Shown here: positions 1,108 to 57,902 of the stretch, piece by piece
How the letters are laid out: every line of letters begins with the position of its first letter
Position numbering within the stretch: position 1 is the stretch's first letter
Assembly: GCF_027942865.1 (NCBI RefSeq)
Contig: NC_134520.1
Span: 3,780,501-3,844,500 of the forward strand
Reading direction: 5' to 3'
DNA length: 64,000 nt
Origin: Odontesthes bonariensis
Taxonomy: Eukaryota > Chordata > Actinopteri > Atheriniformes > Atherinopsidae
Notes under the pieces: generated by a model
What the model was told of the DNA's origin: nothing
What the model saw: only the letters and a program-made list of their open reading frames with translations
The model's database searches: none
Made by a program: the position numbers and the translations under genes

Positions 1108-1704
1108 GTGCAAAAAGAAATTATTAAAACAAAAACTTTAACTGAACAAAAACATCAAACTATTAAATGTGGTTTGCTGAATATCAGATCTCTCCTTTCC
1201 AAGTCTCTGTTAGTGAATGAGTTGATTTGTGATCATCATATTGATATATTTAGTCTTACAGAAACCTGGCTGCAGCAGGAGGATCATGTTAGCATTAATG
1301 AAGCAACTCCCTCTGACTGTTTAAATGTTCACGTTCCTCGAACCACAGGCAGAGGAGGAGGAGTGGCAGCTATCTTCAGATCAGGGTTACTAATCAGTCC
1401 CAGACCCAAGATTAGTTTGAGCTCTTTTGAATCTGTGATTCTCAGTTTTTCCCACGCAAAGTGGAAATCACAGAAACCTCTTGTGTTTGTTGTTGTGTAT
1501 CGTCCACCTGGCCCTTATTCTGAGTTTCTGTCTGAATTCTCAGAGTTTTTATCCCAGTTAGTGCTGAGTACAGATAAAGTCATTGTTGTGGGTGACTTTA
1601 ATATTCATGTAGATGTTGAAAATGACAGCCTGAATATGAACTTTAATTCTATATTAGACTCTATTGGATTTTCTCAGTGTTCACAGACCGACTCACTGCC
1701 TTAA
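1108..1704 (+). pseudogene. L2 LINE endonuclease domain (frame-broken ORF part 1)
   Basis: This is the N-terminal part of the L2 polyprotein, the APE-type endonuclease that nicks the target site for target-primed reverse transcription. Visible motifs are LLNIRSL, the catalytic-region [22 protein letters not shown] and [10 protein letters not shown], in the order usual for CR1/L2 endonucleases. The frame is open upstream of 1,108 (which is GTG, not ATG), so the true start is not defined here. It runs into a stop at 1,702-1,704, just after DSIGFSQ, while the next frame picks up the domain's final part ([10 protein letters not shown]). This indicates a single-base indel between about 1,664 and 1,704. 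Confidence 0.85.
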
Positions 1705-9540: not shown

Positions 9541-9651
9541 GAGTTCTGCGAGACCTTCAGCGTCTTCCCAGAAACTGAAGACATGAATATGTGTGTGTGG
9601 GTACTCATTTTTTCTCGTCTCATTTGGGACCTTTACAAGTCTAATAACCAA
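7771..9651 (-). pseudogene. LINE reverse transcriptase, truncated at the 5' end
   Basis: The translation carries an RT with LKPGKSAGSDQI, NYRGITLLSCLGKLFT, TQAGFRKSYSTTDHI, CSFIDYSKAFDSVW, GVRQGENLSPLLFALFINDL and VLLYADDTIVMS (YADD codons lie in about 8,101-8,130), then NEKTKVTVFG and FEYLGI. The catalytic Asp residues are present. About the first 40 residues at the high-coordinate end (from 9,651) do not look like LINE protein and are probably flanking DNA fused by chance to the truncated element. There is no endonuclease. The frame breaks at 7,771 by a small indel. Confidence 0.85.
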
Positions 9652-9850
9652 CCTTTACTGGGATCGTTAGTCCTCATGGGGACCAAAGCGTGGCTCTTAT
9701 GACATAAAAAAAAACATAATTTCTGGGGGCCTTGTTTGAGTTAGGGCCAAGGTATGAATTAAGGTTAAGCTGAGGTTGGAGTTAGGCTGTCCTCAATATA
9801 TGAAGTAAATGTAACATCGTTATAAGAATATCTGTACATAATTGTGTCTG

Positions 9851-9928: not shown

Positions 9929-10182
9929 AAAGACATATCCCGGAAACAGTTTGTCAGCAACAATGTATAGATTTGAATACGATGAGTCTGTTTGTACAAG
10001 GTTATCACACACAGGTTAGTGCGAGGTCTTTGTTTCTTTGCTTCCGAGAAGGAAAGGTCAGCTGAATGATGATGTTTTTCAACAGGCTTATTTCAGCTTT
10101 GAGGGCCAGAAAGTTCATATGAACTTAAGAGTTCATGTAAGAGTGCATATTCTTCTCATACTGCGGACATATATTCAGCCTT

Positions 10183-10488
10183 TGTGGGAGAAGGATGTCA
10201 TGACATGTTCATGACTTCTGGCCTAGTTACATCCTGGGCCTTGTTGACTGGTTCAGAATATTGTTGATAGTTAGAAGGAGCGTGTTTATGATAAACTGCG
10301 AAAGCTAGGCGCCTCCGGAGAGGGCCACGTACACTTGTTATGATAAAACGGTATAAAAGGGTGTCACTAGATGAGCTCGTCGGACATTTTATACATTCTG
10401 TATGCACATTTGCTGTGACGGTTTGTTCAATAAACTCCCCAATGGACGGCTGACCAACGCGGGATTCGACTCTAATTTCTCCACAACA
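10183..10488 (+). repeat. 5' LTR of the provirus
   Basis: It begins TGTGGGAG and ends CCACAACA, with the usual TG...CA ends. A TATA box (TATAAAA, 10,352-10,358) and a polyadenylation signal (AATAAA, 10,429-10,434) about 70 bp further place U3, R and U5. Read against 20,058-20,363, I see no mismatch. The long minus-strand frame crossing it is only an antisense shadow. Confidence 0.95.
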
Positions 10489-12769: not shown

Positions 12770-13650
12770 ATTAACTGAGCTTTTGATTAGCAATAAATTA
12801 ACATTGGGTAGTATTAGCAATACAGCAAGTATTGATTAGCAATAATTAGTATTGATTAGCAATCACTAGCGTTGAATAGCATAATTAGCATTCAATTAGC
12901 ATTGGTCAACAAGGAAGCTAGCATTGATTAGCAATAGTTAGCATTGGTTAGCATTAGTAGCATTTGCTAGCATGTCATTAGCCATAATTAGCATTGATCA
13001 GAAATACAATTAGCATTGATTAGTAATAGTTAGCATTGGTTAGCATTAGTAACATTTGCTAGCATTTCATTAGCCATAATTAGCATTGATCAGAAATACA
13101 ATTAGCATTGATTAGCAATAGTTAGCATTGGTTAGCATGAGTAGCATTCGTTAGCATGTTATTAGCCATAATTAGCATTGATCAGAAATACAATTAGCAT
13201 TGATTAGCAATAGTTAGCATTGGTTAGCATTAGTAGCATTTGCTAGCATTTCATTAGCCATAATTAGCATTGATCAGAAAGACAATTAGCATTGATTAGC
13301 AATAGCAATAAGGCAAATATTGGTTTAAATCTTAATTAGCAATAGGTTAGCATTTATTAGCAACAGCTAGGAAGCTAACATCCATTGGCATTGGTTGTCA
13401 AACATTAACATTAGCAATAATAGTAACCGAACTCCAAACCGGAAGTCAAAAAGCTAAATTAGCCTAACATTGAATTAACATTGGTTTAATTAAAAAAAAA
13501 AAAAACAACCTAGAGCATAAGCTTTCAAAGCTAACATAGGCTGACCTTAACATTAGCATTGACAACATCCAATCCAGTAATTAGCTGCATCTAAGCTAAA
13601 TTTAGCCAAGCATTAAATTAGCATTGATTAGAGTTAAATAATTAGTGCAT
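12770..13650 (+). repeat. Minisatellite with 92-bp period built from TTAGCATT units
   Basis: The string GCCATAATTAGCATTGATCA recurs at 12,981, 13,073, 13,165 and 13,257, exactly 92 bp apart. Within each unit the octamer TTAGCATT and variants (TTAGCAAT, CTAGCATT) repeat many times. The array fades into looser TTAGCAT-rich sequence on both sides, with A-runs at about 13,490-13,505 and 13,666-13,693. It lies between the ERV leader and gag, so it belongs to the element or was captured by it. Confidence 0.9.
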
Positions 13651-15265: not shown

Positions 15266-17276
15266 AGGTAAGAAGTACACTTACATCAGACGTACTCAAA
15301 AGGGTTTAAAAACCGCCCTCATGTGTGTCATCATTACAAAACAAAATAAAGTTTTTAAGTTAAATGTGTCACGATTACTAAGTTTCTAAAACTTGAATTT
15401 AAATAGGTCACTGTTACTAGGACAAAACAAAACAAAGTTTCTGAATTTAAAATTTAAATGTGCCACTATTACGAAGTTCTAAAATTTGAACGGAACAAAG
15501 TTTCTAATTTAAATTTTAGCATTGATAGTCTGAATTAGAGTATCTATTTAGCCCATAGGGAATTACTGATATCTCTCCATCCCACTTGGAGGGGGTAAGA
15601 AAAGCGCCATGTCCAAATTAAATGAATAAATAACTAATGAATAAATAAGTAAAATTAAAATACAACAAGTATGATCATCTTTGGGGAGGATTATGCAATA
15701 AAATGCGCTTCCTCTGGAAGGAATCATGAAAGATCCAAAGATCAAAGGTTGAAAGCACAACTTTGAAAATTTGAAACGAAATTAGCAAAAGTCATCCAAA
15801 ACGGCCAACACTAGTCTATGAGAAGCCATTTTTCTTATATGTCTCCAATAAAAACCATAAGATTTCAGAACTAATAAATCAGAGTAGGTATGTTGGGACT
15901 CGGACAGGATGTTTGCAGGTTGTGCATCTTTTGACACGTCCAGATGTGAATACAGCAGTGTACTACATCGGGATCTGCAGATGTCATTCCACGTGAGTTT
16001 GAAGGAGAACCACATGAGCGTGTGGCAGAAGCTGTGAGATACATTAGACTGAGACCTGACTTAGGAGCAACTCCACTTGTTCAGGCTGACGTCACTTATG
16101 TGGTGCATGGTTCATGTTGTGAGATCATTTGGGTGATCATGAGGTTTTGCAGTTATGAAACAGGAAGGTGGAGAACTTTGTGACGGTGAAAGCTGAGAAG
16201 TGTGAACGGCCATGTGCGGCACAGTTGGCTGAACTGAAGGCACTAACGGAAGCATGTTGACTGGTGAAAGGTAAGGTTACGAATGTGTACACAGTTTCTG
16301 CATATGCTCATGATATTTTCTCTGCATTTTGAGCAGTTGTGAAGCAGAGAAGGTTCAGGAGGTCAGACGGAAGTCCAGCGCGACAGGAGGTCCAAATGAA
16401 GGAGCGGATTGCGGTCATGAAAATTGTAAATTGGCAGTGATACAATGTCAAATAATCATAGAGGTCACAAAATGGTTGGTAAAGGTAATATCGCGGCTGA
16501 TGAAGCAGCAAAAGTAGCATCAAAGTGCCAGCTTGCTGTTTTGGCACCAATGGTGTTACTGGAGCCAGATGTCACGCCATCACAAGGATATTGGTCATAC
16601 ATATTGGATAAATAGTAGTAAATTTTTTTTGGTAAGGGAATGGATTCATCTGTTTGTCTTTCCATCAGAGATTAGCTCAAATAATGGTTAAGTGTTTGTT
16701 TATAAAGGTGCAAGAGGCATTCTGCAGCAGCTGCGAATCAAGCAGCGCTGTGGGGCCGTTTATCATCCACAAAGTCAAGGGATGCATGAGAGGATCAATG
16801 GAACCTGGAAAGTGAAATTGAATTGAATCTGTGCTTCAACCAAACTAACTAGATGCTTTGCTGCTTGCACTAATGAGATGTCCTATGCAGACTCATAGAG
16901 TCACGCACTAACACCGCATAAAATGCTAACGGGTCGACCCAGGCCGCCACCTCAGTTCCCACTTGAGCAGGTGCAAACAGAGTGGACAGCTTACATGAAG
17001 CAACTAACTGCAGTCCACAGAACAATCTATCTACAGGAGGAGTTCAGAGACTTGAGTCTCAAACAGCTGGTTGAGAGGCCAGTGGTGCCAGGCGACCAGG
17101 TGCACATCGAAGTGTTCCGGAGGAAGTGGCTTGTGCCAAGACGGAAAGGACCGTACACAATGGTGCGAGCAACATCAACAGCAGTTCAAGTGGAAGGTAG
17201 CAACACATGGTACCATTTGAATCACTGCACTAAGGTTCGGACTAAAGACAAAGACGGAGTCCGAGGGAAAGGATGA
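15219..17276 (+). pseudogene. ERV pol remnants (RT, RNase H, integrase pieces)
   Basis: Only pieces survive. At about 15,219-15,335 there is a short RT palm piece (SQYWFTLTYRGKKYTY) joined directly to the gag end, so protease and the N-terminal RT are gone. The rest of RT, including its YxDD region, is not recognisable. At about 15,950-16,540 an RNase H can be followed across frames (ADVTYVVHGSC; AQLAELKALT; GKGNIAADEAA); its first active-site Asp is replaced by His. At about 16,655-16,830 part of the integrase core remains (GAVYHPQSQGM), without the zinc-binding N-terminus. An open frame at 16,923-17,276 is the integrase C-terminal domain (MLTGRPRPPP; GDQVHIEVFRRKW; WYHLNHCTKV). It is not functional. 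Confidence 0.8.
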
Positions 17277-20046: not shown

Positions 20047-20057
20047 AGGGGGGACTA
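20047..20057 (+). promoter_or_regulatory. Probable polypurine tract before the 3' LTR
   Basis: AGGGGGGGA at 20,047-20,054 lies three bases before the TG of the 3' LTR, the usual place for plus-strand priming. Confidence 0.65.
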
Positions 20058-20363
20058 TGTGGGAGAAGGATGTCATGACATGTTCATGACTTCTGGCCTA
20101 GTTACATCCTGGGCCTTGTTGACTGGTTCAGAATATTGTTGATAGTTAGAAGGAGCGTGTTTATGATAAACTGCGAAAGCTAGGCGCCTCCGGAGAGGGC
20201 CACGTACACTTGTTATGATAAAACGGTATAAAAGGGTGTCACTAGATGAGCTCGTCGGACATTTTATACATTCTGTATGCACATTTGCTGTGACGGTTTG
20301 TTCAATAAACTCCCCAATGGACGGCTGACCAACGCGGGATTCGACTCTAATTTCTCCACAACA
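20058..20363 (+). repeat. 3' LTR of the provirus
   Basis: 306 bp, starting TGTGGGAG and ending CCACAACA, with no mismatch to the 5' LTR found by eye. The downstream flank begins CCTT, repeating the four bases before the 5' LTR. Confidence 0.95.
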
Positions 20364-30231: not shown

Positions 30232-32523
30232 TTAAATCAAGGAGTTATTATAGATGCTGATGGCTGTGGGCAGGAAGGATTTCCTGTAGCGGTCCGCTTT
30301 GCATCCAAACTGAAGAAGCCTTTGACTGAAGAGACTCTGTTTTCCGATAACAGTCTCATGGAGAGGATGTTCAGGGTTGTCCATAATTCTCTTGATTTTA
30401 TGCAAAATCCTTCTTTGCATTATTGTCTCTAGAGGTTCCACAGTCGTCCCCAGAACAGAACCAGCCTTCCTTATCAGGTTGTTGAGTCTTTTTAGGTCCC
30501 TGGTTCTGATGCTGCTGCCCCAACAGATGACGCAAGAGGAAATGACACTCTCAACAACAGACTTGTAGAAGATCTGCAACATCTTGTTGCAAACCTTGAA
30601 GGACCTTAGCTTCCTCAAGAAGTACAGTCTGCTCTGTCCTTTCTTGTAGATGGCTTCACTGTTGTGTCTCCAGTCCAGTCTGTTGTCCAGATGAACACCA
30701 AGGTATTTATATTCCTCAACCACCTCCACTTCTTCTCCCATGATGGAAATAGGGTTTGATCTGACCCTGTTTCTCCTGAAATCTACAATCATCTCCTTTG
30801 TTTTGTTAACATTCAAGATGAGATGATTGTTCCCACACCATGCCACAAAGCGGTCCACCAGCTCTCTGTACTCAGCTTCTTGTCCATCTCTGATACACCC
30901 AACAACTGCAGAGTCATCTGAATATTTCTGTAGATGACAGGAGTCTGACTTTTACTGGAAGTCTGAAGTGTACAGAGTGAAAAGGAATGGTGAGAGTACA
31001 GTCCCCTGTGGTGCTCCTGTGCTGCTGATCACCTGGTTAGAAACACAATTCTTCAGTCTGACAAACTGTGGTCTGTTTGTCAGGTAGTCATTAATCCAGG
31101 TGATTGTTGAGGCCTCCACCTGAGTCTTCTGGAGTTTAAGACGAAGCAGATCAGGCTGAATTGTGTTAAATGCACTGGAGAAATCAAATAACATGATCCT
31201 CACAGTGCTGCCTGCTTTGTCCAGATGACAGTGGGTTTGTTGAAGCAGGTGTATGATAGCGTCTTCAACTCCAACTCCATGGCGATAAGCAAACTGCAGG
31301 GGGTCCTGATATGTGCTGGTTTGCTTACACAGGTGGGTCAACAGGAGTCTCTCCAGGACCTTCATGATGTGGGATGTCAGGGCAACAGGTCTGTAGTCAT
31401 TGATGACTGAAGGGTGAGTTTTCTTTGGTACCGGAACCAGACAGGATGTCTTCCACAACAGTTGTACCTTCTCTTGGGTCAAGCTAAGGTTGAAAAGGTG
31501 TTGCAGAATCCCACAGAGCTGCTCTGCACAGGCCTTCAGGACTCGGGGGCTGACACCATCTGGACCTGCAGCCTTGTTCCGGTTCAGTCTCTCCAACTGC
31601 CTCTTCACCTGACTTCTAGAAACAGAAAAGTGGGAGGGGGAGGCAAAGGGGACAGCAGCATCTCCTGATTTGGTTGAAGACAAACTAGTGGAAGCAGAAG
31701 AATCCATGACTGAGGTGGAGGTGGAGATGTTACAGGAAAGCTGTGGGTCAGAGGAGGGTGGGATGTCTCTTTGGCTGGGAACAGGAGGGGAGGATGGTGA
31801 GCTTGTTCCTGAACTGAACCTGTTGAAGAATGTGTTCAGCTCATTTGCTCTGTCCAGACTTCCATCCATCCGATCCTCCCTCTGCTTGAGGCCTGTGATC
31901 TTCTTCATTCCTGACCACACATCTCTGATATTGTTCCTCTACAGTTTACTCTCAAGCTTCTTTCTATACACCTCCTTGCTCTCTCTGATCTTGACTTTGA
32001 GCTGCTTCTGTATACTCCTCAGTAACTCCCTGTCTCGCTCCCTAAAGGCTCTTTTTTTCTTGTTCAATAGTTCCTTTAGCTCACTGGTGATCCAGGGTTT
32101 GTTATTAGGGAAGCATCTCACTGTTCTGGTGGGGATGGTGTTGTCCACACAGAAGTTTATATAGTCAGTCACACACTCAGTCATGGCATTAATGTCCTCT
32201 CCATGTGGCTTACAAAGAGAAATCCAATCGGTTGCATCAAAACAACCCTGTAAGGCTTCTTCAGCTTCCTGTGACCACTTTCTAACAGTCCTTTTTGTGA
32301 CAGGTAGTCTCTGGACAAGGGGTTTATATGCTGAACAGAGAAAAACAAGGTTGTGATCTGATTTACCCAGGGGAGGTCTTGATTTGGAAATGTATGAATC
32401 ATTGACATTTGTGTAAAACAAATCCAATGTCTTGTTTTCTCTGGTAGAGCAGCTGACAAACTGTTGAAAAGTTGGCAGTGTAGCAGAGAGTGAGGCATGA
32501 TTAAAATCACCAGATATTGCCAC
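30232..32523 (-). pseudogene. Rex1-like LINE reverse transcriptase region with in-frame stops
   Basis: One frame runs through three open pieces. The first ends the endonuclease (GDFNHA; SDHNLVFLC) and carries a linker. The second has RT motifs NDYRPVALTSHIMKVLERL, FAYRHGVGVEDAI, MLFDFSSAFNTIQ and GAPQGTVLSPFLFTLYTSDF. A TAA at about 30,949-30,951 then interrupts just before the catalytic box (YSDDSAVVG, where the family usually has Y-x-DD). The third piece (DRFVAWCGNNHLILNVNKTK; ISSCVICWGSSIRTRD; KSFLPTAISIYN) is the C-terminal part. The stops indicate decay by point mutation rather than truncation. Confidence 0.85.
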
Positions 32524-34377: not shown

Positions 34378-37300
34378 TTACAGGTGGCGAGCAGTGAGAC
34401 GTTCGGGAGACAGGCTTCTTTTGCTCCTATATGCCTAAAAAACATGATTGTTTTGATTAAATCAGCAGATCTTTAGTAAGTTTAAGCTCATCATAAATCC
34501 AGCTGAATTAAAATTGGGATCTTGGAATACTTACCCTTAGGGCCATGCATGTGCATGCATGTTGGTAATTTGCAAGAGCGATTAATCATACAGAATCAAA
34601 CATCTTTGTCACTAAAAACCCCAGATCGTGCCTTTCTTTGTGTGTTTGGCCTGACACTCAAACATTATAAGGACTTACAAGACTGCGAGATGGGCTGAGG
34701 GATCGAGAGCGCACGGGGCTGACACTCCTGCTCCTGATCTGGCTCCACTGCGAAAACAGACACAAATTGAGTACCCACATGGGCCCACATCAGACATATC
34801 TCTGTAGAACCGCGTCTGCGTTTATTCTGGTTGTCTTTTTTAAGGTTTGTAAAATCAGTACCGGAGCGCCTCTTCTGGTTACAGCCTCGCCTTTCACAAT
34901 TACAATGTTTCCTTCCACCAAGGCTGGCCACACATGGTACATCACCAGAGGAGCAGTGAACTCAGAGTCATAGCTGCGACGGTACCTGTCAGAGAGAGAG
35001 AGAGAGGGAGCTGTGAGCTGTCTGAGTCCTCTGAGAGTCAAGGGTGACATCTACTGGCAGAGGCTTCACATTGCTGCTATACAGAACTGCTGTTCTGCAG
35101 TAACTCTTCCGTAAGGTTCCATCTTTTCTATGTTACTCTATAATTCCAAATGCATCACTTAGACAATTAAACATCATGCATCCACACAGGACTAACTTGC
35201 TGTCAATGTACAGTTCTCCATCACTTGCAAAGGCCAAGTCAAGTGGCGGGTCCAGAGTCTGCATGGCGAACGCCACCCTGCACGTCTCCCTGATTAAGGC
35301 ACTGATTAGGGTAAAGTCCACTTCTGGCGGGTAGGAGATCCGAGGGTTTACGTTCATAGCGTTGATCACCTCCTGGAGAGATGGAACGCAGAGTGAGATT
35401 CATCTTGCTTCATCCCCAAGCGTCACTCTACAGCCACCGGTTCAAAAATGTTGCACAGGTGAGTTAAAAAGAAGTGTTTTCATCCTACATCGATGCTGGA
35501 TTGAACATCATAGAGGTCCAGGTTTCTGACAATGTAGTCCACAGCCGCATTCTCGAGACTCTCTGGTCCAAAGTGGGACGAGGACAGCGTCTTTCTCACT
35601 CGCAGCTTGAACTGGCGGTAGGCCAGTTTTGCTGTTTGGAAGGATTCCTGAAACAGCGAGAGCACACACAACAACAACAGTATCACAAATGATATTTTAG
35701 AAAATCCTTATTGATTAAATGTTCTCTAAAAATTGTTTTGTACATGAAATGTGCTATACAAATAAATTTGATTTGATGTGATTTGATTTGATAAAAATAA
35801 TGCAACACACAGCCTCCAATGTGGTTAAACGTAACTGCAAAGCATAATATTCTCTCAGCTGACAAACTACACAGCAAGTTGTTAATTCAACAATGGTTAA
35901 ATCATTGCTGTGCTGGAATAACTATTCATCAGATTAAATACTGAAAAAATGTCACTGAATGAGTTTTTGTGGTTTAATTTGGCAATTAACATCCAAATAT
36001 TGGAACAAGATCTAAATGTGATAGCCTATACAGACTGACTTTTATAACAGATAACAGTTGAATTATTCCCTTTTTGTTCGTTAAGGGCTTTCAATTTTTC
36101 TTTTACAGTGTCAGACATCAACATTCAGCACTTCTGCCTGGTGGCATTTTAATGTCCTTTTAGGCTAATCGTGCTGTCTGGGGTATCTTCAGGAAAGGAG
36201 TCAGTGAAAGGATGACAGGGTCTTTTTTTTTCTTTCAGACAATTTAATCCCAAACTTTGAACTTATAACTGCTCCCGAGCAGGTTATGGCTTCAGCCTGG
36301 GTTGCCATGGTAATCTGAAGAGCCACCTGCATGACACTGAAGGCTCAGACTTGCAGCTCAACATTTCTGTCCAAACCATCAGTCATGAAACATTACATGA
36401 AATACTGTTTCATGTACTATTTTCTCTTCTGTTGTTGCATTTTGTGAAAAATTTATTTTTTGGATTTTTCTTTGTGATGTTTTTCATCTCGTGACCGCCA
36501 GAGATTTTAAACGGATCTTCTCACCAACTGAACAGTTGTTGCCAAAAACAGGCAACACTAAAATAACTACAGTCATACCACGGCAGCAGTGAAGATGATT
36601 TTCTGGACCATCTCCGAGTCAGTAATGTAGCGTCGAAGCAGAGACTGGGCCTCCACACGCTCCACAGCGTACAGGTCACTAAAGCGCGATACGAGGCGTG
36701 CGTGGCGAGAGGATTGGGTGAGCTGGGCTCTGGTGGGCGACTCGCTCCTCACAGGGCTGGACGAGCGGCTGAGCCTGGGCAAGGGGCTCGGAGAGCGACT
36801 TCTCACCAACCTGAGAGGTGGAAACAGAAGCATGAAATCAGGTCAGTTGTGGTGTTTGTGCACGTGTGTGAGTACGTACCTCTCCTGCAGCACGGCCTTC
36901 TCTGCGCTCAGATATGACACTTCGTCTCTCAACAAGCGAATCTGTCGTTCGTAGTCATCCAGAGCGTTCGTCCTCCTCTTGTAAGTCTCCATCTGCTCGT
37001 GCGCGGAGCGCAAACTAAAACACAAAGATCACAACAACAAAAAGACTAAATTCAAATAAAAAATAATAAAGATTTACCATGACAATATTCAATTACATAA
37101 CCCACTCTGCTTTTAGTTGTAAGATTTCATCTTCAGTGGCGAGCAGGGTGGTTGCTGATTTGCTTTTTGTCTCATCCAGCTCCCTCTGAGCATCCATCAG
37201 CCTGTTAAAGCAAATGAGCAGCTGAGTCCAAATGAAAGAATTTTTTTCAGCTATCCACACTACATGAATGCTACCGCACTGGACTCACTCTGCTCTGACT

Positions 37301-42782: not shown

Positions 42783-45263
42783 TGGCGTCCGAGCAGGTCC
42801 GTTATGATCTCTACTCGCTGTCATTCTTGCATTTTACTACGTTCTTTCGCTATTTCCTGCTTACGGAGTGGCTCGTAATTCATTTTGAATTATAAAAAGC
42901 TTAAATTAAAGGGATTCGTTTAAATGTATCGCGTTTTGTTCTTGTGCCCTTTGGAAAAATCTGTGCAGCCCAATAAATTGTGGCCTCCGCGTCGTTATTA
43001 TCGTTTGGCGTTGTTTGGAAATAATAATGTGGCTGTATTAACAGGCCCGCTGTTTGACAACGAAGCAATAAAAAATAGAACAGAATAAAAAATGGCAACA
43101 GAAACCATAGATTAAGGGAGAAAGTGGAGAGGATATGCCATTTTGCTGCTGAAATGAGTGCAGTTTATTTTTAGTTCTGGTCACAGACCGACTGTCGCGG
43201 AGCATTTAGCAGATGCATTCCGGCGCAGAGAGCTCTTTATGTGTTTTATGGCTTTGGGCAGTAAATGGAGAGAAACCCCTTAAAATATCGCATTGTACAT
43301 ACCTGAGCGATGAATGCACGAGAACACTACCGCTGTGTTAAAATGTGATCAGACCTGTGAGAGATGTGAGGTGAATAAATATTTGTGATAAGGCAGCCTG
43401 TCTCTTAGATTAAGTGTATTAGGAAGAGTGAGCTTCAATTTATTAGTAGAGTTACTTATTGATTATGGGACCTGTTTTGTTAAATGTGCAGATTTAGTGT
43501 CGTTTAGAGGTTTGTTTTGCTTTGTAGGAGAGCTCCAATGGGCCGGTGAAGAAGTCCATGCGAGAGAAGGCCATAGAGAGACGCAACATCAACAAGGAAC
43601 ACAACAGTAACTTCAAAGCGGGCTATGTACCTATCGAAGAGGAGCGCCTTCATAAGACGGGGCTGAGAGGACGCAAGGGAAACATGGCTGTTTGCATCAT
43701 TGTTCTCCTCTTCCTCCTGGCCTTAATAAACCTCATTGTGAGTGGCTCACGCCTCACAACACTTATGTTCATCACACACACCTTGCTAAAGTAATAAAAA
43801 GTGTGACTCGTGGCATTTAAAGTCTGCGACAACTCTGCTGTCCCTCAGATCACACTGGTGATATGGACAGTGATTCGCATTGGCCCGAACGGCTGCGACA
43901 GCATGGAGTTCCATGAGAGTGGCCTGCTGCGCTTCAAGCAGAAGGCGGACATGGGCGTGGTTCACCCTCTGCACAAGAGCACGGTGGGAGGCCGTAAAGA
44001 CCAGGACCTGGTCCTTGTTGGCAACAACAACCCGGTGAGAAAAAGCAGAAATCAAGGGCTAAACACTCAGCTTTTTTAAATGAGGTGATGCGCTGCGGGC
44101 CCACCCTCAGAGCTATTTTCTTTTATGTCATGTGTGTTGCTAACAGGTAGTGTTCCAGCAAGGCACCACCAAGCTGAGCGTAGAAAAGGACAAGACCTCG
44201 GTCGTCAGCGATGTTGGCATATCCTTCACAGACCCTCGGACGCAGAACACCTTCTTCAGCACAGACTTTGAAAACCACGAGTTCCATCTGCCCAAAGGAG
44301 TCAAAGTCCTCAGTGTTAAAAAGGCCTCCACAGAAAGGGTGTGTATGCTAATATATATCTAACAAAAAAGTGTTTCGCAACTTTGGCATCGGGTACTGTT
44401 GTTGCACAATAATCCATCATGACCAAGTGAAACTATTTGAAGTTAAAAAAAAGGGACTAAAAGAAAAAGCCCTCATTAACACCGTTGATGGGGTGAAAAG
44501 GAGAAAGTTCAGACATGGCTGGAAATTCCTATTTAAACGCTGTAGAAGCTGAGGATCCATGATTTAGAGAAAGCTGTTGTTTTCTAAGGACAAATATCTG
44601 AATGCCCTTAATTTGCTTACCTAAAAGAGAGTTTCGTAGCTTGGCTGTCTGTGGAGAGACATGATGAGCTCACAGCTAATTACACAGTTTCAAGACGCAA
44701 AGCTATAATCCCTCACAGTGGCGCTTTCAAAACAGTCCAAATCATTCAAATCATAATCATCATGGTGTTACAGCTTGAGCCTCTGTATCAAATCAAATAT
44801 TTTGCATCTGTTTTTTAGATCACCAGTAGTCCATCATCCGACCTGAACATCAAGGGGGACAGCAAGGCCATCATTCGTGGCAATGAGGGTGTGAACATCA
44901 TGGGACGGACTGTAGAGTTTAAAATGGGTGGAGACATCATGCTCAGGGCTGTAAGTATTCCTTGCAGCACTGCGTGCAGTATGTAGCGTTTGCATGTATG
45001 TACGGACCATCAGGCGCAGAGCTGGAAAATGGGGGGTGACTTGTGGGTTTTCCTCTTTGCAGGAGAACAGCATCGTGCTCAACGGGTCAGTCATGTTCAA
45101 TGCCACACGCATCCCCAACTCCGCAGGAGGCGAGTATTTCAATGACAGTCTGGAGAGGTACAAGCTCTGCATGTGTGAAGATCGGACTCTGTTCCGTGTG
45201 CTGGTGAAATTTCCCAACATGGGGTGCCAGACATCAGACAACCCGTGTAGAAAAGCTCACTAG
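42783..45263 (+). CDS. sgcb: Beta-sarcoglycan, 6 exons, 311 aa
   Basis: A core subunit of the sarcoglycan complex, part of the dystrophin-glycoprotein complex at the muscle cell membrane. Exons: 42783-42797, 43528-43737, 43849-44034, 44147-44338, 44819-44950, 45063-45263. All junctions are GT-AG and all exons start in phase 0. The ATG sits in a tiny first exon (MASEQ), as in mammals where exon 1 is also very short. The cytoplasmic N-terminus has SSNGPVKKSMREKAIERR; one membrane span lies about residues 58-82 (MAVCIIVLLFLLALINLI). The extracellular part has CDSMEFHESGLLRFKQ and VFQQGTTKLSVEKDKTS, three potential N-glycosylation sites in exon 6 (NGS, NAT, NDS), and the C-terminal Cys cluster YKLCMC...MGC...NPC. 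Human SGCB is 318 aa and highly similar. No disruption is seen. Confidence 0.98.
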
Positions 45264-46786: not shown

Positions 46787-49700
46787 ATGGCAGTACCCCG
46801 GGCGTTTTTGACTGCGGCGGTCCTCCTGGTGTCTTTTGGTTCCCGTTGCTCTTCCTTACCTGTCTGTCCGCAGTCCTGCAACTGTCAGAGAGCTCCACTG
46901 CTCAACTGCTCATCATCTGGCCTGTCCTCAGTGCCACAACTCATCCAATACTCTGTCACAGAGCTAGACTTGTCTCATAACCTCCTCGCCTCTGTAACAC
47001 TTCACCGTCCACATCATAATCTCAGGAGCATATGGCTGGGAAACAACAGCATCACACACTTATCTCTCTGCACAGAGAGAAATGTCGGGGGTCGATATCT
47101 CAGACATCGCTTGGGAACTTGGAGTGGAAAGGGGTGCCTGACTTGGGCCCCCACCCTGCAGCTGCTATCTGTTGAGAGGAATCAGCTTGAACAGCTTCCA
47201 GAGGGTGAGTCAGTGCAATATATTGTAGTCATATACCCATAAAAAGATGACCATGTCAGTGCAATTTAAGAATCTAAAAGCATGATCTAATCAAGTGTCA
47301 GGTGCAGCTGTTAACAAAATGATTAAAATTATGTCACGGAAAATGCTAAAGCTAAAAGTGGTCCAACATAACATTAATATGGAGCTATTTTTTGGCCATG
47401 TAGTCAATCATTATCATTGGTATCTATTAAGTGGTATAAAGGTATAAAGGAATGTGAAATGCAAATACTCAATCATTGTTCGGACTGTACACCTTTATTT
47501 ACCCGTAGGAATGTAACTGAAGAATGTCTATGAGTCACTGTGAAAAGATAAGCCAACCTCAAATGCTACCTTGAAAGGTGGCCTCAGGTCTACGCCATAG
47601 TCCACAGCAGAATGAATCTTGGAGGCGTGTGCGAACTGCCTCTACATAAGATTCTCTGATATAAAGAAACCCTCCCACCGATATCTTCTATCTTTAGCAC
47701 TTTGCTCCATGCCCGAAATGACTGAACCTTCCCAGATAATGACACTGTACGCCCAGCCACAGACAGATGTAAATGGGCAACCCAGCGTTTATCTTTACCC
47801 CTGCATCAACATGTTTTCCTTATCACCATCTGAACATGTGTTTTTCAGAAAACTAGCATTGACTATTTTTCTTCTGAAAGCATGTGCCGACAGCCCATTT
47901 ACCTCACCAGTGCTGTGTTGACTGTCATAGGCCTGATGCTATTTGGTATTCAGATCACAGAACCTTCAGTGCCTCCTCAATGAAGCGTTTGTTTCAGACC
48001 AGCCGTCTCAGGGAGATTGTCTCAAGCTAATGAAAAGGAGGAGACGGTGGACAAAACTATTTGCCCAATTGCAGTGGTCACATTGTTAAAGTGTTTCCTA
48101 AGAAAATAAGACAAAAAACTATTCGGATTCATTAGATTAGATTGTACTTTATTTAACCCACAACGGGGAAATTCACTTGTCACAGCAGCAACAACAGACA
48201 TGAAACAAGAAATTAAAAAAGATAAAACATTTTTTTTTTAAAGAAAAAAAGTACTAAAAAGTAAGAAAAAAAAAAAAGTAAGTACTAAAAAGTACTCATG
48301 GATGAGCTGCATTTTGATCTGGACATTTTTACACAATATCCTACCAAAGGTAGAGAGACCCGTTGTTCATATTTTATAATCTCGGCACTCAAAATACAGC
48401 AAACTTCCAAACAAACAATCTTCATAGCTAAGAATAACTTGTGTTAAATTGATTTAATGTACAATAATCTACAGCCGTACTGAACCCGTTATTCTCCCTG
48501 AAAACCTTCAAGATACAGTACATACCTTGCTCCCTTCAAGAAGAACCTACTCGTGACGTTGAGTCCTGATGAAACCTTTTGTTTCTGTCATTAAGGTCTG
48601 GATGGCATTGAGTCCTTACAGGTTCTGCAGCTCTCTTTCAACAGGATCTCAATCCTGAGACCAGAAGAGCTTAGTCACCTTCGACAGCTCAAAGAGCTAG
48701 ACTTACAACACAACCTCATCAGACATATCCAACCACAGATGTTCCAGGATTTAGTCCAGCTCAGGGTAAGACTGGCTTCTGCTGCTTAGAAGTTTGTCTT
48801 TGAGACAGGTATTGTTGTCTAATTAGGCCTTAATAATCTAACTTTTGAAAGAACATATTGAGAGTATCCTCAAATTGAATATAAATGTTGAATGAGTGTG
48901 TTTTTTAATTGTGATAGATAGTCCATCTAATTACTTGTATCAGTATCAGTTATGGTTGTTTTTGTTTTTCTCTCAAAGGTCCTTGATCTGAGCTTCAACA
49001 TGTTGACCAGCCTCCATCCTTTGATGTACCTCACGCTGCGCAACATTGGAACAGATGTTAGGCTCGGTGGAAACAGGTGGCAGTGTGACTGCAGCATGCG
49101 TAGTCTAAGACGGCGGATGGCTTATGACAACAGCAGAGGGCTGCAGGCTTGGACTGTGGTTTGCATTTTCCCCTCCATCCTCTCAGGCAGAGACCTTCGA
49201 CAGCTGAGGGAGGAGGACCTAAAATGTTCAAGCACTGAAGACAACCCAGATCTCCACCGAGATGTGACAGTCTATAGTGGCTCTGAGATACTGCTATCTT
49301 GCTCTGCACAAGGTAAAACAATCAGGAATTATGTCAAAGAATTACATACATGCAGTATTTAACAATGTACGTTTGTCCAACTCCAACTCCAATTGTCTCT
49401 TTTGTAGACTCAGTGTGGTGGACCCCCAGTGGTCAAGCATCTGGGAGCCAGCATCAGGAAGGTCTGGTGATCAGTGACATCTCAGAGAAAGACACAGGAT
49501 TGTATGTATGTGTGTCTGAAGAAAATCAAATTGTGTCTGTTTTTAACCTCCAAATTAGTGAAATAGTAGGTTCAAGAAAATCAAATCTTCCCAGGACCCG
49601 CCGACAAATAATCCCACCACACACCTCAAACAGGATAGCAGAAGAGAAAAACCAGAGAGTAGCACAGTCTGACTTGGCTCTGGCTGTGTGTCTGTCTATT

Positions 49701-52700
49701 TTTTTTACATTTCTGATAGCTTTTATCCTTGGAGTCCTGGCAAGGCCTTGTGTTGATGTGCTTTGGAAAAGGATAACCACCAAGAAAACCCCTCCTCCAA
49801 CCAACGTTGTCGCTACTGTTGAACAAAGGCAATATGACAACATGGCCTTCTCTAGTGCTGAGGAAGCAGAGCAGATAGGACCTCGCAGGGAAAGAAGGGT
49901 CACATTCAGCACGATAGATGTTGGGGAAGACAGCAGCGTGAATTATTATGATACTGTAGCTAGTGAGGATCAGAACAACATGAGAACCAATGCAGTGATC
50001 GAATGTGAAACAGCTGGAGATGCAGGAAGTGAAAACGGCTTACAACAGAGCAGTCCAGTGGATATACAGAGGGATGACAGTGACTCAGATGGCACTACTG
50101 TACGGCGCAACCACAATATGGAGTTTGAACACATCCCAGATCCTGCTGAGCTGGAGGAGAGGACAAGCATGTCATCATGCTCCGATTCTTCTTTATCTGA
50201 AAAAGAATCAAAAGGCCAAATGACAAGGCGAGACCACACAATGCCCAAATCTCCTCAGCTGGCAGAAGACTCATTTCAGCAGAGAGCTGAATGCTCTGCA
50301 GCTACAAAAGGAAAAGTTCCAAAAATTTCCACAAAGGGCAAAAGTGAAATTCCTGGATTTTCTTCTGAGCCTTTTGCAGACTGGTCACCACATACAAATA
50401 ACAGAGAACCAACAGATGCTGATATTTCACAGGACAACGAGGAACTATTTGAATTCAGTGACTCTCCTCAAAGTACATCTGTAAGCTCTAGTGTGCTTGG
50501 TTCTTTTAATCAGTCAAAACAAGTTGTAAAACCCAATTCAGACAAAAATATAAGGGGTGATATTTCCAGCTCCAGTTCAAGTATCAATGAGGATGAGCCC
50601 ACACGTTACGCCAAAAAGCCAGCAATGAGACAAGATGGCTCCTTTTCCTCTGACTCCAGTGACAGTGACGATGGGAGGGAAAAATCTATTTCTGATAATT
50701 TGAACAGCAGGCTAGTTACAGCTGAAGGGGAAACCAGGAAGAGAATTGCACCCATGCCACCACCTGCAACATATGCATCCTCTTCCAGCAGTGACAGTGA
50801 AGAAGAAAACCAAGAAGCAGGACACAACAAAGGCAAAAGAAGCCAAATCAAGAACCGTTTGAACATCAGAGCCCCAATATCACAGAGTGATTCATTCTCT
50901 AGTGATGAGAGTGCAGATAAAGTAAAGGACTACATGAAGCTACAAAAAAAAAAAAAAAAAAAAACGACGAGGATCCAAGAATCTCAACCAGTAAATCCTA
51001 ATTCAAACACACAGTGGCCTGCTGTTGATCTTGAGCGTTCAACACGTGTCAAAAGGCACCTAGATATCAAAGGCTCATCACTAAGTTCTGAATCCTCTTC
51101 AACTAATGACAGTGAGGATGAAACAACAGTCCACAAAAAAGATAATGAGAGATTACACGTGTCAGTAACTCCTGTTAAAGTGTCTCAAACAGGAAGTCAT
51201 GTGCCAGAAATCCAGTGGCCTGCTGTTGATCTTGGGTGTTCAACACGTAACAAGAGGCACCTAGATATCAAAGCACCTTCACCAAGTTCGGATTCATCTT
51301 CTAGTAGTGACAGTGAGGATCAAACAACTGGCCACACAGGGAATCAAAGGCCAGGGAGGTTGGACATTGGACGTCTTCCTTTTCAAGAATCTATAACAAA
51401 AAGTTCTGATCCAGATGGAACGTGGCCTGGTGTTGATCTTCAACATATGTCTCGTGTTAAGAGGCGCCTAGATATCAGAGCACCATCACCAAGTTCTGAT
51501 TCATCTTCAAGTAGTGACAGTGAGGATGAAACAACAGTCCAGAAAAAAGAGAATGAGAGATTACATGTGCCAATAGCTCCTGTTAAAGCGTCTCAAGCAG
51601 GAAGTCATGAGCCAGAAAACCAATGGCCTGCTGTTGATCTTGGGCGTTCAACACGTGTCAAGAGGCACCTAGATATCAAAGCACCTTCACCAAGTTCTGA
51701 TTCATCTTCAAGTAGTGACAGTGAGGATCAAACAACTGGCCACAAAAAAGAGAATGAGAGATTACATGTGCCAATAGCTCCTGTTAAAGTGTCTCAAGCA
51801 GGAAGTCATGAGCCAGAAAACCAATGGCCTGCTGTTGATCTTGGGCGTTCAACACGTGTCAAGAGGCACCTAGATATCAAAGCACCTTCACCAAGTTCTG
51901 ATTCATCTTCAAGTAGTGACAGTGAGGATCAAACAACAGTCCAGAAAAAAGAGAATGAGAGATTACACGTGTCAGTAACTCCTGTTAAAGCACCTCAAGC
52001 AGGAAGTCATGAGCCAGAAAACCAATGGCCTGCTGTTGATCTTGGGCGTTCAACACGTGTCAAGAGGCACCTAGATATCAAAGCACCTTCACCAAGTTCT
52101 GATTCATCTTCAAGTAGTGACAGTGAGGATCAAACAACAGTCCAGAAAAAAGAGAATGAGAGATTACACGTGTCAGTAACTCCTGTTAAAGCACCTCAAA
52201 CAGGAAGTCATGAGCCAGAAAACCCGTGGCCTGCTGTTGATCTTGGGCGTTCAACACGTGTCAAGAGGCACCTAGATATCAAAGCACCTTCACCAAGTTC
52301 TGATTCATCTTCAAGTAGTGACAGTGAGGATCAAACAACTGGCCACAAAAAAGAGAATGAGAGATTACATGTGCCAATAGCTCCTGTTAAAGTGTCTCAA
52401 GCAGGAAGTCATGAGCCAGAAAACCAATGGCCTGCTGTTGATCTTGGGCGTTCAACACGTGTCAAGAGGCACCTAGATATCAAAGCACCTTCACCAAGTT
52501 CTGATTCATCTTCAAGTAGTGACAGTGAGGATCAAACAACTGGCCACAAAAAAGAGAATGAGAGATTACATGTGCCAATAGCTCCTGTTAAAGTGTCTCA
52601 AGCAGGAAGTCATGAGCCAGAAAACCAATGGCCTGCTGTTGATCTTGGGCGTTCAACACGTGTCAAGAGGCACCTAGATATCAAAGCACCTTCACCAAGT

Positions 52701-55700
52701 TCTGATTCATCTTCAAGTAGTGACAGTGAGGATCAAACAACAGTCCAGAAAAAAGAGAATGAGAGATTACACGTGTCAGTAACTCCTGTTAAAGCACCTC
52801 AAACAGGAAGTCATGAGCCAGAAAACCAATGGCCTGCTGTTGATCTTGGGCGTTCAACACGTGTCAAGAGGCACCTAGATATCAAAGCACCTTCACCAAG
52901 TTCTGATTCATCTTCAAGTAGTGACAGTGAGGATCAAACAACTGGCCACAAAAAAGAGAATGAGAGATTACATGTGCCAATAGCTCCTGTTAAAGTGTCT
53001 CAAGCAGGAAGTCATGAGCCAGAAAACCAATGGCCTGCTGTTGATCTTGGGCGTTCAACACGTGTCAAGAGGCACCTAGATATCAAAGCACCTTCACCAA
53101 GTTCTGATTCATCTTCAAGTAGTGACAGTGAGGATCAAACAACTGGCCACAAAAAAGAGAATGAGAGATTACATGTGCCAATAGCTCCTGTTAAAGTGTC
53201 TCAAGCAGGAAGTCATGAGCCAGAAAACCAATGGCCTGCTGTTGATCTTGGGCGTTCAACACGTGTCAAGAGGCACCTAGATATCAAAGCACCTTCACCA
53301 AGTTCTGATTCATCTTCAAGTAGTGACAGTGAGGATCAAACAACAGTCCAGAAAAAAGAGAATGAGAGATTACACGTGTCAGTAACTCCTGTTAAAGCAC
53401 CTCAAACAGGAAGTCATGAGCCAGAAAACCAATGGCCTGCTGTTGATCTTGGGCGTTCAACACGTGTCAAGAGGCACCTAGATATCAAAGCACCTTCACC
53501 AAGTTCTGATTCATCTTCAAGTAGTGACAGTGAGGATCAAACAACAGTCCAGAAAAAAGAGAATGAGAGATTACACGTGTCAGTAACTCCTGTTAAAGCA
53601 CCTCAAACAGGAAGTCATGAGCCAGAAAACCCGTGGCCTGCTGTTGATCTTGGGCGTTCAACACGTGTCAAGAGGCACCTAGATATCAAAGCACCTTCAC
53701 CAAGTTCTGATTCATCTTCAAGTAGTGACAGTGAGGATCAAACAACTGGCCACAAAAAAGAGAATGAGAGATTACATGTGCCAATAGCTCCTGTTAAAGT
53801 GTCTCAAGCAGGAAGTCATGAGCCAGAAAACCAATGGCCTGCTGTTGATCTTGGGCGTTCAACACGTGTCAAGAGGCACCTAGATATCAAAGCACCTTCA
53901 CCAAGTTCTGATTCATCTTCAAGTAGTGACAGTGAGGATCAAACAACAGTCCAGAAAAAAGAGAATGAGAGATTACACGTGTCAGTAACTCCTGTTAAAG
54001 CACCTCAAACAGGAAGTCATGAGCCAGAAAACCCGTGGCCTGCTGTTGATCTTGGGCGTTCAACACGTGTCAAGAGGCACCTAGATATCAAAGCACCTTC
54101 ACCAAGTTCTGATTCATCTTCAAGTAGTGACAGTGAGGATCAAACAACTGGCCACAAAAAAGAGAATGAGAGATTACATGTGCCCATAGCTCCTGTTAAA
54201 GTGTCTCAAGCAGGAAGTCATGAGCCAGAAAACCAATGGCCTGCTGTTGATCTTGGGCGTTCAACACGTGTCAAGAGGCACCTAGATATCAAAGCACCTT
54301 CACCAAGTTCTGATTCATCTTCAAGTAGTGACAGTGAGGATCAAACAACAGTCCACAAAAAAGAGAATGCGAGATTACATGTGCCAATAGCTCCTGTTAA
54401 AGTATCTCAAACAGAAAGTCATGAGCCAGAAAACCTGTGGCCTGCTGTTGATCTTGGGCGTTCAACACGTGTCAAGAGGCACCTAGATATCAAAGCACCT
54501 TCACCAAGTTCTGATTCATCTTCAAGTAGTGACAATGAGGATCAAACAACTGGCCACAAAAAAGAGAATGAGAGATTACATGTGCCAATAGCTCCTGTTA
54601 AAGTGTCTCAAGCAGGAAGTCATGAGCCAGAAAACCAATGGCCTGCTGTTGATCTTGGGCGTTCAACACGTGTCAAGAGGCGCCTAGATATCAAAGCACC
54701 TTCACCAAGTTCTGATTCATCTTCTAGCAGTGACAGTGAGGATCAAACAACTGGCCACACAGGGAATCAAAGGCCAGGGAGGTTGGACATTGGACGTCTT
54801 CCTTTTCAAGAATCTAAAACAAAAAGTTCTGATCCAGATGGAACGTGGCCTGGTGTTGATCTTCAACATATTCCTCGCGTTAAGAGGCGCCTTGATATCA
54901 AAGCTCCATCACCAAGTTCTGATTCATCTTCTAGCAGTGACAGTGAGGATGAAACAACAGTCCAGAAAAAAGAGAATGAGAGATTACACGTGTCAGTAGC
55001 ACCTGTTAAAGCACCACAAACAGTAAGTCATGAGCCAGAAAACCAGTGGCCTGCTGTTTATTTTGTGCATTCAACACGTGTCCAGAGGCGTCTAGATATC
55101 AAAGCACCTTCACCAAGTTCTGGTTCATCTTCAAGCAGTGACAGTGAGGATCAAACAACTCGCCACACAAGAAATCAAAGGCCCGGGAGGTTGGACATTG
55201 GAAGTCTTCCTTTTCAAGAATCTAAAACAAAAAGTTCTGATCCAGATGGAACGTGGCCTGGTGTTGATCTTCAACATATTCCTCGCATTAAGAGGCGCCT
55301 TGATATCAAAGCTCCATCACCAAGTTCTGATTCATCTTCTAGCAGTGACAGTGAGGATGAAACAACAGTCCAGAAAAAAGAGAATGAGAGATTACACGTG
55401 TCAGTAGCACCTGTTAAAGCACCACAAACAGTAAGTCATGAGCCAGAAAACCAGTGGCCTGCTGTTTATTTTGTGCATTCAACACGTGTCCAGAGGCGTC
55501 TAGATATCAAAGCTCCATCACCAAGTTCTGGTTCATCTTCAAGCAGTGACAGTGAGGATCAAACAACTCGCCACACAAGAAATCAAAGGCCCGGGAGGTT
55601 GGACATTGGAAGTCTTCCTTTTCAAGAATCTAAAACAAAAAGTTCTGATCCAGATGGAACGTGGCCTGGTGTTGATCTTCAACATATTCCTCGCATTAAG

Positions 55701-57902
55701 AGGCGCCTAGATATCAGAGCACCATCACCTAGTTCTGAGAAGTTACTTATGTCAATATTAAGTGGTGGGAATACAGGTCATATACAGGAAGGAAAGATTG
55801 AAAAAGCTTATAAAAGTCTGAGTTACTCATCAAGCAGTTCAGATAATGAAGAGGAGGGTATAAAACATTTCAACAACCAGCCAGAAACATCAGCAACGGA
55901 TCCAAATTCAAAATGGCCAAAAGTGGGTTTCAGCAGCAACCTCCATATTAAAAGGCGTCTGGATATCAAAGCACATTTAACTTCTCCTGAGTCATCTTCC
56001 AGCAGTGATGAAAGTGATGTTAAGACAAAGGACCTACCTATGACAAAGAGAGACAGAAGCCATGTGGGGTTTATACCCCAGGTTAATAGACGTTTGGATA
56101 TCAAAGCTCCATTGCTCAGCAGCAAGTCTTTGGACACTCAACAGTCTGAATCACACTCTTCCAGAAGTGAGAGTGAGGATGAGAATAGAGACAATAAAGT
56201 AGAGATGGGAGTAACTGCCACATTAGCGGCTTCAGAGAAGATGTTCATAAAAAATCCAAAAGTGCCAGGGATAAACATTTCTCGCAGTCCAAAGGAAGAC
56301 CCCGTCAAATTAGAAAGGTATACAGTTATTACAGATGGCAACAAACCGACACCTGACACCATCCCCATAACACCTGAGATTAATTCAGAACTTCAGATAA
56401 AGTGGGCCACAATGAAACTTGGCGTTTCCCGCACCCGAAAGCGCCTTGAAATAACATCACATGCAAAAGAACCTCCCGGTTTGCCGTCATCATCCCAACC
56501 CGACTCCCCGTACTCTTCCAGCAGTGAAAGTGGCCCCAGCAGAAAAGCAAGACTAAACAGAAGGGTTGTTGGAACGCATGAAATAATCCACACAGACTCA
56601 TCTTCAATCCTTGAAAACAAATCAGTGAATGTTTCTGCCACACCGAAAAATCTGGATAAATACAGCACCTCAGCAGACGCCAAAGACAGAGTAAGAGAAG
56701 ATTATAACATCCTTGTAAATGAAGAAAAGTCAAAGCCTGACTCTATGTTGGTTGATTTTGGTCCTCCACCTGTTAGAGTCACTGAAAAGGCTCCTGTTAC
56801 ACCATCACAGCAACAGCCTCACTCCTCCTCTAGCAGCAGCAGCAGCGAGGATGAGACCATATCCCACAGTGTTCCTGACCTGAGTGCCGGTGTCCCACGC
56901 ATCAAAAGGCGTCTGCTCATAAAGGCACCATCACCACAGCCAAGTAGTTCTCCATCTTCTTGCAGTGAGAATGAAAATGACGCAATTGCGTACAATTCAA
57001 AACAAAGCATACACTCGTCATATATTTTAGGAATGGCAGACGACTATATAACCCCCTATAAGCGTTCAATTATCAAAGCTTCATCAGTGCCTAGTAACTC
57101 TTTCACCCCAAGTGGCAGGGGTCAACCTGTGGACTTTACAGAACAGAGGCCTACAGGGGTTGATATGCTAACTGGAAAAATGCATGCACCTCTTGAGCCA
57201 ATGAGCAGTCCAAGAATGACCTTGGATGAAATGACAGAAAGGAGGATTGAACAGTCAAGATCTTACGCAGATGTGGACCTTCCACGTGAGATAAGGTGGG
57301 CTGGTGTTGGTCGTCATCTGTCCGACCCTTTGATGTCCAAACCAGCAAGTGTGAATTCAGCGCGGAGGCCTCTGCGCCAGGGTCCACCCGCAGAGCCAAA
57401 ATCTTCAGCTCTTGACCCCTCCAGCAGTGTAAGCATCGCTGAAATAATGCAAGGCAGTGGTATTTCAGGCAGGACAGTGGTACACAAATATTCGTCACTT
57501 CCTGCCACAAGTGTTGCTCCTTTATCCGATGATGCTCTCAACAAGGTTGGCAACTTACCCGGCAGGACACATGAGATGTCAGGGTCTGTGCCTGAGGGCA
57601 ACAAAGCAAGGAGAGGCCTCGGTGCCCTAAAAAACATGGCGTCTGAGAGAAGAACGTGGGAAGCAAATGTGGATAAGGATGCATCTCCTTCATTGGATGG
57701 CCACGGTCCACGAGATGGCAACAGTTTTGAACAGGACATCAAAGTCCAAAAACAAGTACGTCTTGCCTCCGGTTCAGTAGATGAGAGAGAAGCTGGATAT
57801 TTGTTGTACGGAATACCCCTCTACAGGAGGCATAACAGAGACAGTAAGCCACCACAGGAGGCTCCACCTCCCGTTCCAGAAACACCTCCACCAGATTACT
57901 GA
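46787..57902 (+). CDS. lrrc66: LRRC66-like LRR/Ig membrane protein with giant repetitive tail, 3,138 aa
   Basis: Coding exons: 46787-47204, 48596-48765, 48979-49312, 49408-57902. Junctions are GT-AG with agreeing phases (9,417 nt). The first coding exon has an acceptor at 46,773, so a non-coding exon probably ends at 46,631. Signal peptide about 1-25 (AFLTAAVLLVSFG); LRRNT cysteines (VCPQSCNCQ); leucine-rich repeats (TELDLSHNLL; LQVLQLSFNRI; LKELDLQHNLI; LDLSFNMLTSL); LRRCT (NRWQCDCSMRSLRR); an Ig-like segment (EILLSCSAQ...DTGLYVCVSEE); one span about 397-420 (LALAVCLSIFFTFLIAFILG); then about 2,700 cytoplasmic residues. Residues about 842-2,417 are 24 tandem 67-69-aa units; further degenerate copies flank them. 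The C-terminus is Pro-rich (PPPVPETPPPDY). Naming rests on position between sgcb and dcun1d4 plus architecture; human LRRC66 is only 880 aa. Function is unknown. Confidence 0.85.
48133..48192 (-). repeat. LINE tail fragment in lrrc66 intron
   Basis: ATTAGATTAGATTGTACTTT, then ATTTAACCCACAACGGGGAAA, the reverse complement of a common fish LINE 3' end. A-rich simple sequence follows. Confidence 0.6.
51015..55737 (+). repeat. lrrc66: Coding tandem array: 24 units of 201 or 207 bp
   Basis: Counting from each TGGCCT (W-P), units start at 51,015 and the 24th at 55,662. The distance of 4,647 bp equals 23 x 201 + 4 x 6, so four units (2nd, 19th, 21st, 23rd) are 6 bp longer. All lengths are multiples of three, which keeps the frame. 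Each unit encodes WPAVDLGRSTRVKRHLDIK, then APSPSSDSSSSSDSED, then a short variable linker. The 201-bp units in the middle differ by only a few bases. The 207-bp type has GRLDIG(R/S)LPFQES in place of the RLHV...APVK linker. Confidence 0.97.

Follow-up and report, generated by a model that had tools for sequence, protein, structure and literature searches.

In zebrafish, lrrc66 is induced by pneumococcus and is called functionally uncharacterised in an excerpt of the study concerned (PMC9858863); among the listed literature matches that mention LRRC66, none has it in the title, and the passages and listed matches naming LRRC66 make no mention of a repeat in its tail. Two further systems described elsewhere resemble the protein considered here: the acidic serine stretches of NOLC1 and TCOF1 are primed by casein kinase 2 (CK2) and pyrophosphorylated according to an excerpt of PMC11427299, and the cyclin-binding peptide of E2F1 is given as PVKRRLDL in an excerpt of PMC4381256. 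Here we describe a tandem array of coding repeats in a 64,000-nucleotide stretch of the Odontesthes bonariensis genome (NC_134520.1, positions 3,780,501 to 3,844,500 of the forward strand; referred to as the window), which is housed in the final exon, 8.5 kb long, of a gene that is very probably the LRRC66 orthologue. The array is genuine, a protein repeat whose amplification is recent. The reading we favour, at roughly even chances, is that it forms the middle of the LRRC66 cytoplasmic tail and would act there as a disordered, phosphorylation-tunable multivalent docking platform derived from an amplified old unit.

Tandem Repeats Finder reported a period of 201 with 22.6 copies, 88% matches and 1% indels at positions 51015–55567, and cutting the frame wherever WP[AGK]V occurs resolved 24 units starting at 51015, together with a clearly diverged 25th at 55914 (Table 1). 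The units have a 35-residue core in common, and the linkers differ, their types alternating along the array. The repeat motif reads W-P-x-V-x-L ... K-R-R-L-D-I-K-A-P, followed by an acidic serine cluster; the basic core consensus WPxVDLxxxxRxKRxLDIKAPSPSS and the S5-DSED block behind it were both recovered as first described. The first-pass annotation had counted 24 units of 67–69 amino acids, of which the in-frame tandem array stands, but strictly there are 23 full units, 19 of 67 amino acids (201 bp) and four of 69 amino acids (207 bp; units 2, 19, 21 and 23), and a stub, unit 24, that retains only its first ~25 amino acids. Its observation that all length differences are multiples of three holds, both length classes preserving the frame. 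On the plus strand this frame is open from 49317 to 57902 (2861 codons), with no stop within the array compared to 45–186 stops in each of the other five frames. The unique DNA on either side (49408–51014 and 55737–57899) is likewise open in the array frame, so that we are not merely looking at one open unit copied many times.

Near identity at the DNA level had been taken to mean recent expansion or conversion, which the unit comparison bore out: identical pairs number 19 of 105 in units 4–18, where no pair differs at more than 14 of 201 nucleotides. Units 4, 7, 8, 10, 11 and 14 are identical over 201 nucleotides, three further units are identical to one another, and two more likewise. In an exact-repeat scan (offsets 180–2499, runs above 450 bp reported), the longest direct repeat measured 716 bp, its copies being offset by 603 bp, which represents a three-unit higher-order repeat; the next longest measured 541 bp. 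Both exact repeats exceed short-read length, as they might in an assembly artefact with a wrong copy number or order, or with units stacked by the assembler; we consider this quite unlikely, because the array has distinct unit types, private variants in units 16, 17 and 18, diverged ends and an ordered layout, and an artefact would alter the number of units, not create the unit or its diverged copies. Variable sites in units 4–18 amount to 1 of 105 in the core and 16 of 96 in the linker (Fisher p 4.5e-5), with the border placed at the motif end after the units had been seen and with the sites of copied units non-independent. As synonymous core sites are invariant too, this contrast reflects mainly recent homogenisation, not selection on the protein, and the array offers a clean case of a coding repeat with a homogenised core and variable linkers.

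Copies of the core were also detected outside the array. Using a profile built from 9 distinct 35-amino-acid cores, compared with 500 shuffles of the same segment, we found four diverged copies, one before the array and three after it, all scoring above the best shuffle, which indicates that the motif predates the amplification of the array; weaker profile matches (5.4 bits or less) were serine runs that scored inside the shuffle range or close to it. An alignment of 12 copies, 10 taken from the array's 24 units and two from its flanks, shows no variation in R-x-L-D-I and at two serine positions, and hardly any at W, P, V, K and A. The between-unit ratio of non-synonymous to synonymous differences (pN/pS), calculated from related copies and without a significance test, was 0.43 in the core (0.53 in its basic part, 0.30 in its acidic part), 0.60–0.66 in K linkers (0.66 among the distinct ones) and, in T linkers, 0.56.

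These values bear on the possibility that the array is a neutral coding minisatellite, in which an unconstrained disordered spacer expands through frame-safe recombination and copy number has no function. The very recent homogenisation described above, the free change of amino acids in the linkers, and the counts of strict CK2 and Ser-Pro/Thr-Pro (SP/TP) sites in the array, neither of which lies above composition (see below), all speak for it. However, the core survives in four diverged copies beyond the array and has the lower pN/pS, which argues for constraint on the motif and says nothing for constraint on copy number; we regard the neutral account as possible but doubtful.

The acidic serine block had been likened to CK2 acceptor sites, and we compared site counts with composition-preserving shuffles. 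Hierarchically primed CK2-type sites lay above the shuffles in the array (115 versus 63.6, standard deviation (sd) 8.2, maximum of 500 shuffles 85), where copies are not independent and the enrichment rests on one copied unit, and in the post-array tail (41 versus 21.1, maximum 34), and were not clearly above in the pre-array tail (30 versus 18.6, maximum 33). Strict S/T-x-x-D/E sites, on the other hand, were not above composition in the array (54 versus 49.9, sd 5.9), the corresponding counts being 18 versus 14.9 (sd 3.2) in the pre-array tail and 28 versus 17.2 (sd 3.3, maximum 30) in the post-array tail; the array is consistent with CK2 acceptor sites and goes no further. By the hierarchical count, acidic serines in the post-array tail are clearly more clustered than composition predicts, and those in the pre-array tail suggestively so; over both counts taken together the picture is mixed. 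Both serine codon families are used (TCN/AGY 167/115 in the array, 40/28 before it and 69/44 after it), and simple triplet slippage is therefore not the explanation of the serine block. Within one unit, the net charge per 12-residue window spans +4 to −4, and it would reach −12 if the four predicted CK2 sites were occupied. An AlphaFold model of one unit, produced from 12 aligned rows, showed no fold (mean predicted local distance difference test score (pLDDT) 63.4, predicted template modelling score 0.16) and no assigned secondary structure, with pLDDT peaking at 84 over RVKRRLDIKA.

With such alternating blocks, the array could conceivably be a nuclear-type polymer, its basic core serving as a nuclear import signal and its acidic serine blocks acting in the manner of Nopp140 or treacle after cleavage of the tail from the membrane. 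We hold this to be highly improbable, since W-P-x-V and L-D-I are not known as parts of such layouts. What supports it is that both NOLC1 and TCOF1 have basic blocks taking turns with acidic serine stretches of CK2 type, as far as the excerpted source goes (PMC11427299).

The heptapeptide VKRRLDI of the array differs from VKRRLDL of E2F1 only in the last hydrophobic residue, a likeness to a cyclin-docking peptide that we treat as a lead only. If followed, [KR]R[RH]LDI would belong to the RxL (Cy) motifs and the next SP would be a cyclin-dependent kinase (CDK) site, so that the tail would titrate cyclin-CDK or be its substrate. Besides the single-residue difference from the excerpted E2F1 peptide (PMC4381256), the invariance of R-x-L-x-I in the unit and the presence of SP close to 25 of 29 LDI-type cores (a pattern made afterwards) fit this proposal. 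Nevertheless, we judge it unlikely. RxL is short and promiscuous: the loose pattern occurs 24 times in the array, as copies of one, versus 4.5 by chance, but in the post-array tail stays within the chance range (8 versus 3.35, maximum 9) and is absent before the array (0 versus 0.67), while a stricter pattern is above chance after the array (6 versus 0.48, maximum 4) and absent before it. SP/TP sites are not enriched relative to shuffles in the pre-array tail (5 versus 5.9), the array (30 versus 34.6) or the post-array tail (14 versus 13.7). Furthermore, W-P-x-V and K-A-P are also conserved and not needed by RxL, ~15 units carry RHL instead of RRL, and a membrane receptor is an odd location. 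PDB sequence searches with three units and with one core gave no match up to an E-value of 10, in a set from which peptides shorter than 20 amino acids are absent.

The identity of the host gene was approached through its exon structure and its neighbours. Four exons joined at proper borders give 3138 codons without a stop, and the spliced product contains, in order, a hydrophobic N-terminus, leucine-rich repeats (LRRs), an immunoglobulin (Ig)-like domain, a single hydrophobic span and ~2700 residues of tail; the start ATG of exon 1, the signal peptide and the membrane span were all picked by eye, with no dedicated span predictor, and a non-coding exon upstream of coding exon 1 is possible. 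In Pfam searches of the spliced product, LRR_8 scored above its cut-off (E 1.7e-31), confirming an LRR ectodomain, and Ig_3 (E 9.7e-6, 26.4 bits) fell under its cut-off of 30. The ectodomain had 413 PDB sequence matches, of which IGFALS came first and the best were generic LRR matches; LRIG1 (4u7l) and LINGO (2id5, 4oqt) were among the best 60 of the 413. Gene order in the window is SPATA18-SGCB-array gene, both neighbours lying upstream, SGCB on the same strand and SPATA18 on the opposite one. The human order is SPATA18-SGCB-LRRC66-DCUN1D4 in the excerpted SGCB haplotype paper (PMC10497502), and because the SPATA18-SGCB side is equal to it, we name the array gene LRRC66, as the very probable orthologue. 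DCUN1D4 was not found in the 6 kb remaining in the window, where one open reading frame was scanned.

We propose that LRRC66 is a predicted single-pass LRR-Ig surface protein whose cytoplasmic tail has the array as its central part. The ancestral tail would have contained several copies of a unit in which a hydrophobic/basic docking motif, W-P-x-V-x-L-x4-R-V-K-R-R/H-L-D-I-K-A-P-S-P, is joined to an acidic serine cluster, and in this lineage unequal crossing-over and conversion may have raised one part to ~24 copies. The disordered tail would then serve as a membrane-tethered multivalent platform with one docking site per unit for the same cytoplasmic partner. Phosphorylation of the adjoining serine cluster by CK2-type kinases could shift the local charge from weakly to highly negative, thereby tuning binding or clustering, with avidity set by copy number. 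If the tail motif is the working part of LRRC66, the amplification would name a 20-residue core with its acidic serine block as the motif, and would supply a natural allelic series in copy number.

Several observations weigh against this proposal. Strict CK2 sites in the array do not exceed composition, the pN/pS values come from related copies and may partly reflect homogenisation, and the high pLDDT over RVKRRLDIKA may just mirror the conserved columns supplied to the model. In addition, a run of 21 A in the reading frame, 50 bp ahead of the array, could curb the output of the array-bearing form: if the run slips by 1 or 2 bases, either way, a stop follows 16–19 codons on, before the array. 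Ribosome stalling and frameshifting have been reported at in-frame polyA runs (excerpts of PMC7295572 and PMC4363877), and a frameshift at this run would yield a receptor without the array. The strong donor-like 9-mer ACAGTAAGT (GTAAGT), at 55020–55028 and 55428–55436, is confined to units 20 and 22 as far as the exon-4 matches to NNNGT[AG]AGT go, and these sites were considered as a candidate way of splicing out part of the array. A bolder model would have a membrane-tethered polymer of ~24–29 identical kinase-docking units in which R-x-L-D-I draws cyclin-CDK or a like partner to the cell surface, CK2-primed serine blocks form a phosphate or pyrophosphate sponge, receptor strength follows a repeat number that differs between individuals through fast change and 21-A slippage gates the output; we think this very unlikely.

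Two short matches in the tail, RRVTF and the C-terminal PPDY, which we take to be a PP1-type RVxF docking match and a PPxY-type WW-domain ligand match, respectively, are listed in Table 1. Pfam matches of the long repeat frame to PH_SLA1, F5_F8_type_C_2, Cache_WalK and PDZ_5 were rejected, as no single stretch passes threshold and weak chance matches are summed over copies; on one three-unit stretch the same families were under curated cut-offs. Repeat searches gave 4 pattern matches in viral contigs and 47 in genome contigs, with none confirmed in either, in collections that hold no fish and are therefore silent on fish. Elsewhere in the window, a 309-bp direct repeat, 99.7% identical (10180–10488 and 20055–20363), bounds a young retrovirus-like insertion, and a murine leukaemia virus (MLV)-type integrase C-terminal match (PF18697, E 2.7e-11) lies between its copies at 16899–17273. 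Three RVT_1 reverse-transcriptase frames of LINE (long interspersed nuclear element)-like elements are found at 1658–4048 (+), 7771–9654 (−) and 30952–31938 (−), and Tandem Repeats Finder located a non-coding, TAGCAT-rich tandem repeat at 12831–13305 (92-bp unit, 5.2 copies).

Table 1 Positions in the window of the array, its host gene, neighbouring genes and associated features.
Feature	Positions	Strand	Basis
Tandem array, 23 full units and truncated 24th	51015..55736	+	Repeat finding, frame splitting, unit comparison
Span of longest exact direct repeat	52227..53545	+	Exact-repeat scan
Duplicated 408-bp dimer, units 20-21 and 22-23, 3 differences	54846..55661	+	Unit comparison
Diverged core copy SQIKNRLNIRAPISQSDSFSSDESAD	50841..50918	+	13.0 bits vs 6.5 best of 500 shuffles
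Diverged copy 25, WPKVGFSSNLHIKRRLDIKAHLTSPESSSSSDESD	55914..56018	+	30.1 bits vs 5.1 best of 500 shuffles
Diverged copy IPQVNRRLDIKAPLLSSKSLDTQQSE	56073..56150	+	15.1 bits vs 5.1 best of 500 shuffles
Possible diverged copy WATMKLGVSRTRKRLEIT	56403..56456	+	By eye and a pattern made after copies were seen; not given by profile search
Diverged copy VPRIKRRLLIKAPSPQPSSSPSSCSE	56892..56969	+	26.0 bits vs 5.1 best of 500 shuffles
Coding exon 1: signal-like hydrophobic N-terminus, first LRRs	46787..47204	+	Open spliced frame, GT donor, LRR by Pfam
Coding exon 2: LRRs	48596..48765	+	AG/GT borders, frame, LRR_8 on spliced product
Coding exon 3: final LRR, cysteine-rich cap, first part of Ig-like domain	48979..49312	+	AG/GT borders, frame
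Coding exon 4: remaining Ig-like domain, membrane span, entire cytoplasmic tail, stop	49408..57902	+	Open to TGA 57900-57902
Predicted membrane span, SDLALAVCLSIFFTFLIAFILGVLA region	49668..49745	+	Hydrophobic stretch, by eye in translation
RRVTF, just inside membrane	49893..49907	+	Pattern match; count not above chance
Run of 21 A	50944..50964	+	Sequence
PPDY at C-terminus	57888..57899	+	Pattern match; 0.13 expected in segment, up to 2 in 500 shuffles; not above chance
SGCB (beta-sarcoglycan)	43528..45263	+	Sarcoglycan_1 in 4/4 frames, 3 above cut-off; PDB beta-sarcoglycan E 9.4e-32
SPATA18 / mitochondria-eating protein	34790..36842	-	Pfam MIEAP above cut-off in 4/5 minus-strand frames

Compared with known systems, the array gene shares with LRRC66 its gene neighbourhood (SPATA18 and SGCB), an LRR ectodomain and one membrane span (assigned by eye), whereas the Ig-like domain and the ~24-copy tail array are known here from this one gene alone. 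Like the LRIG and LINGO LRR-Ig surface receptors, it has an Ig-like domain after its LRRs and then a single span, and presumably differs from them in its tail. With E2F1-type RxL (Cy) cyclin-docking motifs, the unit has V-K-R-R-L-D-hydrophobic in common, but unlike them the array has two dozen copies, sits in a membrane protein and has conserved W-P-x-V and K-A-P around the motif. A disordered chain in which basic blocks take turns with acidic serine blocks of CK2 type recalls NOLC1/Nopp140 and TCOF1/treacle, a likeness in the way of working only, as those proteins are nuclear or nucleolar and the array tail is instead joined to a membrane span. The candidate function is that of a multivalent scaffold; set beside these systems, the tail is remarkable for its size, not for being a new sort of thing.

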